A stretch of 64,000 nt of DNA from Planctomycetota bacterium (GTDB taxonomy: Bacteria > Planctomycetota > Phycisphaerae > Sedimentisphaerales > Anaerohalosphaeraceae): positions 1 to 64,000 of the forward strand of contig VRUI01000019.1 in assembly GCA_019456225.1 (NCBI GenBank), written 5' to 3'. Each line of letters starts with the position of its first letter. Position 1 is the first letter of the stretch. The position numbers and the translations under genes were made by a program. The notes below the pieces were generated by a model. That model worked only from the letters and a program-made list of their open reading frames with translations, was not told the origin of the DNA and made no database searches. Of this stretch, positions 15,221 to 62,163 are shown one piece after another.

Positions 15221-16081
15221 TTAACTCTTCTCAGTACCGGCATCACTTGCAGGAGCTTCCGGTGCTGTAGGAGCTTCCGGTGCTGCTGGTGCCGCTGGTG
15301 CCGCAGGAGGAGCAACCGATGGTTTTCCGGCTGCCGGAATCGGAGCCTTTCCACCACGACCACCGCCGCCGCCTTTACCACCCTTATTGAAGCCGCCGCC
15401 ACCTTGACGAGGTCTGCGAGGACGAGAAATCGGAACGATCTCTTCGCCAAACTTACCTTTATATATCCAAACCTTAACACCGATCGCACCGTATGTTGTC
15501 CTAGATGTCGCAACACCGTAATCAACATTGGCGTCAAGTGTCTGAAGCGGAATACTTCCAAGCTTCTGAGTTTCGCTTCTGGCAATTTCAGCTCCGCCCA
15601 AACGACCGCCGCAGATAACCTTAACGCCCTTGGCGCCGGCATTCATCGCATTTTCACAAGCCATCTTCATCGCACGCCTGTAAGAACCGCGCTTCTGAAG
15701 TTGAGTTGCAATATTTTCTGCTGTCAATACCGCATCAAGAGCAGGCTCTTTGATTTCGATGACATTTACATTAATCTTGCGATCCACAAGATCTTCAAGT
15801 TCTTCGCGAAGCTTATCAACTTCTGCACCGCGAGGACCAATCACCATACCAGGACGAGCTGTCGACAGCGTAACCTTAACCTCGTTACGAGTACGGCAAA
15901 TCTCTGTCTTTGCCACGGCAGCATAAGGAGGCTGCCTGTTAAAACGGGCGTCTATGTATTTCCGGATCTTCCAGTCTTCGACAAGAAAATCGCCATAGTT
16001 AGCCTTAGGAGCAAACCAGGTGCTCTGCCACCCAAGTGTAATACCTGTCCTGAATCCAATTGGAGATGTCTTCTGACCCAT
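15221..16081 (-). CDS. rpsC: 30S ribosomal protein S3 with low-complexity tail
   Basis: 286 residues. The first ~215 are normal S3: MGQKTSPIGFRTGI, the KH domain (VTLSTARPGMVIGPRGAEVDKL) and the C-domain DYGVATSRTTYGAIGVKVWIYKG. The last ~70 are a Gly-rich stretch followed by Pro/Ala repeats, longer than in most bacteria and probably disordered. S3 guards the mRNA entry channel. Followed by rplP, preceded by rplV. Confidence 0.97.
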   Translation of the reverse strand: MGQKTSPIGFRTGITLGWQSTWFAPKANYGDFLVEDWKIRKYIDARFNRQPPYAAVAKTEICRTRNEVKVTLSTARPGMVIGPRGAEVDKLREELEDLVDRKINVNVIEIKEPALDAVLTAENIATQLQKRGSYRRAMKMACENAMNAGAKGVKVICGGRLGGAEIARSETQKLGSIPLQTLDANVDYGVATSRTTYGAIGVKVWIYKGKFGEEIVPISRPRRPRQGGGGFNKGGKGGGGGRGGKAPIPAAGKPSVAPPAAPAAPAAPEAPTAPEAPASDAGTEKS

Positions 16082-16157: not shown

Positions 16158-16706
16158 TTACTCTTCTGAAACTGCTATATGAATATGGCAAGCCTGCTTT
16201 TTGATCGGATGAGCACGACCGCGGTCCTTTGCGATCCATGTCTTAGTTCCGATACGCCTGCCGGCACCATCAACACGCGACTCGCTGATATAAAGGTTAT
16301 CGACGTCTGCAGCACTTTCATCAGCAGCAGCTATCGCTGTCTGAAGAACCTTTTCGATCATTCTCGCCGCACGCTTGTGCTCAAACTTAAGAACATCAAG
16401 AGCATCCTGCGTACTTCTGCCAGAGATAAGGGCCGTTACAAGCCTGGCCTTTGTCGGTGATGATGGAGCATATTTGTAAGATGCGCGCCACTCAGAAATC
16501 TCGGCAACTTCGACACTTAGAGCATCTGCAAGCCGCTCAACATCATCAGCAGTTGGTTTAGGTTTATACAGCCCCTTGCGCCAGTTATTTATCGCCTTTA
16601 CCGCAGCCTTAACATCGAAACCGCCGTGAGTTATGCGGCTGGCAATATCAGAACTGCTCATCTTGCGCTCTTTACATACTTCGTTTAATTTTTTGCTGCT
16701 TAGCAT
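16158..16706 (-). CDS. rplV: 50S ribosomal protein L22 with N-terminal HTH-like domain
   Basis: 182 residues from the ATG at 16706 (AAGG 8 nt upstream). Residues ~75-182 are a normal L22: YKYAPSSPTKARLVTALISGRS, then FEHKRAARMIEKVLQTAIA and the C-terminal hook DRGRAHPIKKQACHIHIAV. The first ~70 residues are not part of standard L22 (about 110 residues). They resemble a Cro/XRE-type helix-turn-helix: KLNEVCKERKMSSSDIA, INNWRKG and VERLADALSVEVAEISEW. This could give DNA- or RNA-binding autoregulation, or be a lineage-specific ribosomal element exposed near the tunnel exit. Confidence 0.93.
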   Translation of the reverse strand: MLSSKKLNEVCKERKMSSSDIASRITHGGFDVKAAVKAINNWRKGLYKPKPTADDVERLADALSVEVAEISEWRASYKYAPSSPTKARLVTALISGRSTQDALDVLKFEHKRAARMIEKVLQTAIAAADESAADVDNLYISESRVDGAGRRIGTKTWIAKDRGRAHPIKKQACHIHIAVSEE

Positions 16707-16789
16707 TATCAAAACCTTACTAATTAGCCGGAGGTCTAATTAAATACCTCACTTGACGTTATATTTTAAATACGATTTACAAAAAACCG

Positions 16790-17056
16790 CTACTTCTTAT
16801 TACCAGAGTGACCCCTGAACGTTCTTGTCATAGAGAACTCACCAAGTTTGTGACCTACCATATCCTCAGTCACAAATACCTTAAGAAAAGCTTTGCCGTT
16901 ATGTACCATGAACGTAAAACCAACAAATTCAGGTATAATAGTACAAGCTCTTGCCCATGTCTTGATAGGCTCTCTGGTCCCATTTTCGTTCTGCTTAACT
17001 ACCTTAAGGTAGAGCTTCTCATCAACGAACGGTCCTTTTTTCTGAGATCTTCCCAT
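16790..17056 (-). CDS. rpsS: 30S ribosomal protein S19
   Basis: 88 residues: [19 protein letters not shown] and the C-terminal [17 protein letters not shown] signature. S19 lies in the 30S head beside S13. Standard position between rplB and rplV. Confidence 0.98.
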
Positions 17057-20105: not shown

Positions 20106-20499
20106 TTCTGTCCCTTAAGCCGAAACTACATTAACAATATCTAAACCGTTTTTGCGAAAGGTTGCCAAGATAACATCTTAACGCACAAAAACAAGCATAT
20201 TTATTAGAAATACACAAAAAAATTACAAATTAAGCCTTTTTATTAAAAAAAACAGTTCACAACACTGAAAAAAAAATAATTATCAGTCTTTGACCGAAGA
20301 TCGCGTTAGATCGCGTTAAAAAGGAGGCAATAAAGGAAGGTTTCCCCATCAAATACAGATAATACCGCTTTGCCGACTGCAAAGCCGCTTTATCTGCCAT
20401 AACATTGATGAAAAAACAGCCCAACTAATATCGCACAAAGCACTTTTATGCTCGCTCCGACTGTTAAAACGGATAATATATCAAACTTGTTGAACCACG
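20106..20499. other. Spacer between fusA and rpsJ
   Basis: 394 bp, A+T-rich, no credible gene. It contains a candidate rpsJ promoter (20167-20194), a tandem 10-bp direct repeat GATCGCGTTA x2 (20299-20318), and a weak hairpin (CTTTGC / GCAAAG, 20368-20384) that might attenuate fusA read-through. Confidence 0.6.
20167..20194 (-). promoter_or_regulatory. Candidate sigma-70-type promoter of the S10 operon
   Basis: On the minus strand TTGTTT, a 16-bp spacer and TATCTT lie about 60 bp upstream of the rpsJ start in an A+T-rich tract. The match to consensus is moderate. Confidence 0.35.
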
Positions 20500-60469: not shown

Positions 60470-60949
60470 CTATGATACCATAAACTGCATCCCAAGCCGT
60501 CTAACCATCTCGAAATCATCAATCCATTCAATGCCCATCGCCTCACAAACATTAGGTATTTTAATTCTTCTCGTAGTATTAGTTTCAAATTGCTCTTTAG
60601 TCACAACAATAGCGTCTTCTGCCATTGCATGTGCAATAACCCATGGATCTGCAATCGATCTTTGTTTTGTGGAATCAACAAGTCTGCGGTGATTAGGATC
60701 TTGAAATACTCGGGCTAAACATCCCTGAACCCTATCGTCAATATCTCTGAAAAAGTAGTCCCTTTCACCGAGCCATTCCTTTAATGTATCATCAATCTTA
60801 TCAATCTCGCGTTTCACTTCTACTGTTGCAAAAACTTCTCCCGCTTGAGCAAGTTCATCAAGTTTACGCCAGTAATCACCAAAGAAATCGTTATGATAAT
60901 ACTTGTTCCACGCTTGAATAAAAACGTTTGAATCCAGACAAAAACTCAT
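60470..60949 (-). CDS. DUF4411 PIN-like toxin
   Basis: 159 residues: N-terminal CLDSNVFIQAWNKYY (acidic site Asp6), then EVKREIDKIDD, the ADPWVIAHAMAEDAIVVTKE block and C-terminal IKIPNVCEAMGIEW, typical of DUF4411 PIN-domain proteins. Such ribonuclease-like toxins are paired with XRE-ImmA/IrrE proteins, as here: the start overlaps the upstream gene by 4 bp (ATGA). Confidence 0.85.
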   Translation of the reverse strand: MSFCLDSNVFIQAWNKYYHNDFFGDYWRKLDELAQAGEVFATVEVKREIDKIDDTLKEWLGERDYFFRDIDDRVQGCLARVFQDPNHRRLVDSTKQRSIADPWVIAHAMAEDAIVVTKEQFETNTTRRIKIPNVCEAMGIEWIDDFEMVRRLGMQFMVS

Positions 60950-62163
60950 ATACCCCCTCCAACAGTTGCAAAAGGAATATTTACGGCGTTGGCAACACCA
61001 ACTAATTTATTGATTTTAACACCAAGTAAATTAGATGTATCGCGACCAGATAGTTGTCCATTTTGATACGCACCAATCACAATCTTACAAAAAGAATGAC
61101 CATTGTTCATCGACTTAATAACATAGTAATTTGGCCTGCTGTCTTGCAGACTTTGCCGTTCCTTTTCTAGTATTTTATTAGCATGCCATTCTTCCACAAA
61201 CATTTGAGCCAAATCTCTATATTTGCGGTTGGTTATCTTACCCCAAGTAAGTAGCCTCCGAGCAATGACCTCTCGGCTAACATTGAAATGCCTAGCACTT
61301 GAGTCAATACCTTCTTCAACCGTCTTGTCCATAATAACTCTACGCCATCTTTGACTAAAACACTTTTGAGGAACCAACACTTCAGCGGAAACGGCATTAC
61401 AAAATATTTCTATTCGGTCTGATTCGCCCGTAGCTCTTCTCGCAGCAACAAGATTAGAAATACCAGAAATGTTCAGCCACAAATGAGCAAGTTCGTGGAT
61501 AAGAGTAAATATTTGCCCAGCTTTTGCATCCTGAGCATTCAAGAATATGAATGGAGCATAATCATCCGTCAAAGCAAATCCTCTAGCTTCAATTATATCG
61601 ATCTGCTCGTAAGAATAACTCCCTCCTCGAAAAACAAATACACCTAATTCCTCAGCCTTGTTTATCCAAAGGCGCAAAGCGTCTCCAGCCCCTCTACATC
61701 TCCTGACATCATCAACAGTAACCCCCAACATAGTCCTTATAGTTTTAGCCAACTTCAGTACATTGTCAGTTAAGTTCGCAGATCCAATGAAGCCCAACTG
61801 AGGCATTTCTTCAAACCTTAAGTAATCTCGAAGCCACTGTTGTCTATCTTGAGTTTGCCTTACCAAGAAGTTCAAATGAGGACTAAATTCACTAGAATAA
61901 TCAGAAGGCAGTCTCCTGAAATCTCGTAATGTTTGGAAATCCTCTGGAGGTTCCGGTAAGAAGAAAACCGCAAGTGGTCGCTTATATACCTCTGATGCCT
62001 TACGAGCCTGCGGTATTGTAGGCTGTAATTCACCAGATTCCCAAGCAGATACTTCTTCTACAGAGCGACCTATTTTGCTTGCAGCGTCATCAAGACAGTA
62101 TCCGCAAGACTTACGGGCCCACTCCATAACATCTGGTGTAATATTGGCTCTAATCCTTGGCAT
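60946..62163 (-). CDS. XRE family regulator with ImmA/IrrE metallopeptidase domain
   Basis: 405 residues: an N-terminal helix-turn-helix (about 16-65, CLDDAASKIGRSVEEVSAWESG), a linker, then an ImmA/IrrE-type zinc peptidase with HELAH (223-227) and a C-terminal extension. It belongs to the type II toxin-antitoxin partner family seen with DUF4411. The ATG has GAGGG 5 nt upstream. Promoter at 62252-62280. Confidence 0.9.
   Translation of the reverse strand: MPRIRANITPDVMEWARKSCGYCLDDAASKIGRSVEEVSAWESGELQPTIPQARKASEVYKRPLAVFFLPEPPEDFQTLRDFRRLPSDYSSEFSPHLNFLVRQTQDRQQWLRDYLRFEEMPQLGFIGSANLTDNVLKLAKTIRTMLGVTVDDVRRCRGAGDALRLWINKAEELGVFVFRGGSYSYEQIDIIEARGFALTDDYAPFIFLNAQDAKAGQIFTLIHELAHLWLNISGISNLVAARRATGESDRIEIFCNAVSAEVLVPQKCFSQRWRRVIMDKTVEEGIDSSARHFNVSREVIARRLLTWGKITNRKYRDLAQMFVEEWHANKILEKERQSLQDSRPNYYVIKSMNNGHSFCKIVIGAYQNGQLSGRDTSNLLGVKINKLVGVANAVNIPFATVGGGI

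Follow-up and report, generated by a model that had tools for sequence, protein, structure and literature searches.

Ribosomal protein uL22 is universally conserved and lines the exit tunnel. In a Planctomycetota bacterium, its gene encodes about 70 residues in front of the usual protein, which raises the question whether this extension is a genuine part of the protein and whether it acts as a DNA-binding switch or as an element of the ribosome.

An extended rplV gene in an ordinary S10 cluster

The window, i.e. the whole stretch of 64,000 nucleotides that was analysed (positions 1-64,000, forward strand of contig VRUI01000019.1, assembly GCA_019456225.1), carries rplV at 16158..16706 on the minus strand, with its ATG at 16706 and the end of the reading frame, stop codon included, at 16158. 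The original prediction had read this 182-residue frame as about 70 N-terminal residues preceding a complete L22, and its coordinates, strand, length and motif reading are right. Residues 1-70 (16497..16706, minus strand) correspond to a Cro/C1-type helix-turn-helix (HTH) domain, as predicted by Pfam HTH_26, AlphaFold2 and fold matches in the PDB, and residues 71-182 (16161..16496, minus strand) to the complete uL22 core, as assigned by Pfam and by structure alignment with solved bacterial uL22. Ribosomal_L22 (PF00237) matches residues 75-179 (E 2.4e-26, 92.4 bits, cut-off 28) and TIGR01044, named 50S L22 in NCBIfam, scores 79 bits at a cut-off of 73.65. The gene is placed normally in an ordinary S10 cluster, between rpsS (S19; 16790..17056, minus strand) upstream and rpsC (S3; 15221..16081, minus strand) downstream, and HTH-uL22 is the sole uL22 found in the source genome, where it occurs in a single copy.

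A Shine-Dalgarno-like TAAGG (16715..16719, minus strand) lies 8 nt 5' of the ATG and recurs across the order, with an AAGGTT-like motif 5' of the rplV start in many order members. In a second group of carriers, family f8, rplV starts with GTG, which in several members is preceded by a GGAG- or GGA-type motif. An internal start giving only the L22 core had been considered in the original prediction; between residues 16 and 82 of the window gene, no ATG, GTG or TTG lies in frame, so that a core-only L22 could not be made from an ordinary start, and 42 of 76 carriers likewise lack an in-frame start between residues 64 and 80. For the 28 related-gene pairs in which it was measurable, omega is 0.04-0.38 for the extension and 0-0.11 for the core, which indicates that the extension is under purifying selection, though weaker than that on the uL22 core. 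Judged from these sequences, the conserved start, the lack of an internal core-only start and the purifying selection mark the extension as real protein, and its conservation at one and the same position across dozens of genera, combined with this selection, argues that it is not a product of chance. An artefact or a wrongly assigned start was ruled out by the start conservation, the internal-start scan and the omega values.

The extension is predicted to adopt a repressor-type fold

Pfam HTH_26 covers residues 6-73 and exceeds its cut-off of 22 bits both with the whole protein (E 6.5e-5, 23.5 bits) and with the extension alone (E 6.5e-6, 26.7 bits); among 14 diverse extension members it matches 4, and HTH_3, HTH_19 and HTH_31 match 4-5 each. 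A PDB sequence search with the extension alone gave nothing significant. The full-length AlphaFold2 model, built from 16 sequences, has a mean pLDDT of 83.5 and contains predicted helices at residues 4-14, 18-25, 32-43, 53-63 and 67-70, followed by the uL22 fold, and the extension modelled alone reaches a pLDDT of 89.5. Foldseek relates the latter model to Cro/C1 domains with a probability of ~1, but with best E-values of only ~0.03-0.1, and VIA-align yields Z values of 10.2 for CylR2, 10.0 for C.Csp231I, 9.9 for HppE, 9.4 for P22 c2, 9.3 for SinR and 8.9 for 434 Cro. Profile and models agree that the extension is a predicted repressor-type Cro/C1 HTH fold, as had been proposed from its Cro/XRE-like pattern; structure prediction, named beforehand as a possible refutation of that proposal, returned the HTH fold.

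With the full model, the matches listed in the fold search are uL22 proteins only, because the uL22 domain fills the list. In structure alignments, model residues 71-182 correspond to chain residues 1-110 of uL22 solved from bacteria, with Z up to 19. Thus, in the model, the HTH domain would sit exactly before the usual Met1 of E. coli-type uL22, i.e. with a zero-length junction and no linker.

Distribution in the Phycisphaerae

In the class sample, 58 of the 61 genomes of the Sedimentisphaerales-like order to which the window belongs carry the extension, and the remaining three have neither an extension match nor any L22 match in their assemblies, i.e. the extension is present on every L22 found within the order. 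Two further Phycisphaerae families carry it as well, f8 in 27 genomes and f12 in two, so that the distribution check foreseen for the Phycisphaerae arrives at one order plus two families. In carriers the extension is always fused to L22, and no free-standing copy with a strong match (E below 1e-11) was seen in profile searches of the class genomes. The named relatives are Sedimentisphaerales and Phycisphaerae MAGs with 56-69% full-length identity. The families f9, f10, f11 and f73-f83 of the class that were examined possess an ordinary L22 without the extension, and 134 non-matching class genomes fall outside this family-by-family listing. The profile searches covered the window's own phylum; in a sample of 391 phylum genomes, 29 match the extension profile, all belonging to the same order and families, and the extension was not found elsewhere in that sample.

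A profile built from the order only picks out the L22-attached extension as the sole significant match in genomes of f8 and f12, at E 1e-17 to 6e-12, and nothing comparable in f9, f10, f11, f74, f80 and f60. HHalign relates the order set to the f8/f12 set with a probability of 99.7% at 25% identity, suggesting that both extensions are one homologous domain.

A conserved basic face and a variable recognition helix

Cro/C1-type HTH domains typically bind DNA sequence-specifically, usually as dimers, and repressors read DNA with the outer face of helix 3. N41 and W42 do not vary at all in an alignment of 76 extension sequences; A38, P49 and A60 are nearly invariant, and basic residues are kept at positions 6 (94%), 27 (72%), 40 (82%) and 44 (72%). 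The surface positions of the recognition helix, 32-34, 36 and 37, rank with the least conserved of the domain, at an information content of 1.0-1.9 bits. The domain has a modest net positive charge (median +4, range -3 to +10), and its helix 2-3 segment appears several residues longer than in 434-type repressors. The conserved face looks like one that binds nucleic acid via backbone contacts rather than one that reads a single operator, and the recognition specificity of the variable helix 3 might differ by lineage.

A probable permanent element of the 50S subunit

uL22 belongs to the constitutive proteins of the 50S subunit and, with uL23, uL24 and uL29, rings the tunnel exit (PMC5071890). 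As the HTH domain ends where uL22 begins, we expect it to be fixed in one place, on the solvent-facing side of the subunit near the rim of the tunnel exit, and a linker-free fusion to such a protein is most simply read as a permanent ribosome element. We therefore consider it probable, though far from assured, that the HTH domain is a permanent, RNA-touching element of the ribosome and not a sequence-specific DNA-binding switch. A repressor-type domain would then have been recruited as a constitutive 50S element that docks on rRNA near the tunnel exit, its conserved basic face with the Asn-Trp pair contacting 23S rRNA or an adjoining ribosomal protein, and it may serve 50S assembly or stability or the architecture of the exit rim. 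Besides the missing linker, this reading draws on the variable recognition helix, the invariant Asn-Trp pair with its basic face, the lack of a conserved cis-element before rplV, the constant fusion to L22 throughout the order and in the 27 and two further genomes, the purifying selection, and the precedents of an HTH domain on the ribosome and of solvent-side extensions in chloroplasts (see below). Accounted against it are the modest net charge, the sister families of the class that do without the extension, and the comparison of 23S rRNA from nine carriers with that of three class non-carriers, one other planctomycete and E. coli, in which no carrier-specific loss was seen. The extension also evolves faster than the uL22 core, so that whatever it contacts must be under less constraint. 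That the HTH domain replaces a lost 23S element is not supported by this comparison, the changes in domain III and other length changes being common to non-carriers too.

The original prediction had offered two roles, i.e. linking free L22 to operon control or forming a ribosome surface element. As an autoregulator, free HTH-L22 would repress its own operon, at the level of DNA or mRNA, when rRNA is limiting, and would be idle on the ribosome. Autoregulation by ribosomal proteins is common, the fold is of the repressor type with DNA-binding regulators as best matches, and the basic face is retained. However, the surface positions of the recognition helix are variable, no Rfam ribosomal protein leader is present within the window, and the rpsS-rplV gap, where readable, ranges from 4-14 nt in some relatives up to over 50-100 nt and contains, directly 5' of rplV, no conserved element beyond the TAAGG motif. 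We found no positive evidence for operon control and regard autoregulation as improbable, the surface element being the better fit to a linker-free domain that is present on every L22 found in the order and combines a variable recognition helix with a conserved basic face. A dual use, in which the HTH domain resides on the ribosome but recognises specific DNA or mRNA as long as L22 is unassembled, and so ties 50S assembly to the regulation of the L22 operon or other genes, seems to us improbable, too.

The HTH domain might instead be a protein-protein platform, i.e. a docking module at the exit rim for a putative lineage-specific nascent-chain factor. The tunnel exit is surrounded by uL22, uL23, uL24 and uL29 (PMC5071890), and Cro/C1-type domains also occur in enzymes such as HppE/HEPD, themselves among the best fold matches; we judge this possibility unlikely, yet worth keeping in mind. 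Finally, a fusion fixed by chance could have left an appendage that folds but has no specific role, evolving nearly neutrally. The faster evolution relative to the core and the several class lineages without the extension would agree with such an ornament, but the invariant N41-W42, a fold core and basic positions that are strongly conserved, and the fact that all L22 proteins found in the order have kept the domain speak against it and make it very improbable.

Evolutionary history

In a tree of 13 concatenated ribosomal proteins, from which L22 was left out, the order forms one clade, whereas f8 and f12 stand beside f11 in another. A single clade of all carriers was rejected by the same proteins (AU p 0.0005), and a grouping of f8 with f12 is compatible with the data (p 0.06). 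Transfer of the whole gene, tested on the tree of the uL22 core, gave p 0.2, the core being too short to decide. Three histories would account for this pattern: an old fusion with several losses, two gains of the domain out of one HTH family, or transfer. A recent origin from phages was rejected, the extension being unmatched in 50,697 phage records, and so was a recent plasmid origin, as among the plasmid matches listed only the L22 core was covered.

Relation to known systems

Other bacterial uL22 proteins share the core fold, the gene order and the tunnel hairpin with HTH-uL22, but begin at its residue 71 and lack the HTH domain. CylR2, C.Csp231I, SinR, P22 c2 and 434 Cro have a helical repressor fold like that of the extension (Z 8.6-10.2), which differs from Cro/C1 (XRE) regulators in its fusion to a ribosomal protein, its longer helix 2-3 region and its variable recognition helix. 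A fusion of L22 with an unknown domain is described by NF008917 (PRK12279); with HTH-uL22 this profile reaches 35.3 bits at a cut-off of 526 and covers the L22 part alone. TniQ, a transposition protein of type V-K CAST transposons, resembles the extension family weakly at the profile level (E 7e-4) and aligns with it at helices 2-5 only. To our knowledge, none of the extensions of chloroplast uL22c or mitochondrial uL22m is an HTH domain. These organellar proteins are also enlarged by lineage-specific terminal extensions, and chloroplast ribosomal protein extensions, including that of uL22c, lie mostly on the solvent side (PMC5071890).

The nearest parallel is EDF1/Mbf1 of archaea and eukaryotes, a Cro/C1 HTH protein that, as proposed for HTH-uL22, contacts rRNA at the ribosome: EDF1 places its HTH domain between h16 and h33 of 18S rRNA, and archaeal MBF1 associates with ribosomes through the HTH domain, whereas EDF1 is stated to be absent from bacteria (PMC7486125). 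Unlike HTH-uL22, however, EDF1/Mbf1 is a separate small-subunit factor whose N-terminus is formed by an MBF1 or zinc-ribbon domain, and HTH-uL22 starts with the HTH domain at the N-terminus, directly followed by uL22. In the literature covered, which includes few subscription papers, no mention of an HTH-L22 fusion was found. Enlarged uL22 and ribosome-bound Cro/C1 domains are each known; what appears to be new is a bacterial protein that unites the two. If the proposed ribosomal role is correct, a transcription-factor fold has been recruited into the bacterial ribosome and kept across a whole order, in parallel to EDF1/Mbf1. HTH-uL22 is a concrete target for the structural study of Planctomycetota ribosomes and bears on what lineage-specific domains of ribosomal proteins do.

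Further features of the ribosomal genes and of the window

In the order, the tunnel hairpin of uL22 (window 16227-16271, minus strand) contains a three-residue insertion, VDGAGRRIGTKTWIAKDRG as compared with VDEGPTIKRFQPKDRG in f8, f12 and most others. The insertion is located at the same place in L001-L030 and L118-L137, and is present in 55 of 55 readable own-order sequences, six more being unreadable by pattern. In other bacteria, insertions and deletions in the uL22 hairpin are known from erythromycin-resistant mutants (PMC6685948). S3 ends in a Gly/Pro/Ala-rich C-terminal tail of ~70 residues (15221-15430, minus strand), and a gap of ~390 nt between fusA and rpsJ (20106-20499), 5' of the S10 genes, is a possible leader or promoter site that has no Rfam match.

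The 23S rRNA gene of the source genome (L152, G000:C87) is interrupted by a 771-nt insert after E. coli position 1917, which, as read by eye, contains a LAGLIDADG-like ORF at L152:3581-4090; the insert matches the group I intron model weakly, with 25.7 bits, i.e. below the cut-off of 50. Intervening sequences are also found in the 23S rRNA of two other genomes, 289 nt long after E. coli position 1871 (L139, G037) and 312 nt long after position 547 (L153, G274); both apparently encode small GIY-YIG-like proteins, as read by eye, and their ends seem to form complementary arms. Elsewhere in the window (60470-62163, minus strand), an XRE-type HTH protein of 405 residues with an HExxH-like motif adjoins a small PIN-like protein of 159 residues, a pair that by eye resembles a toxin-antitoxin pair.
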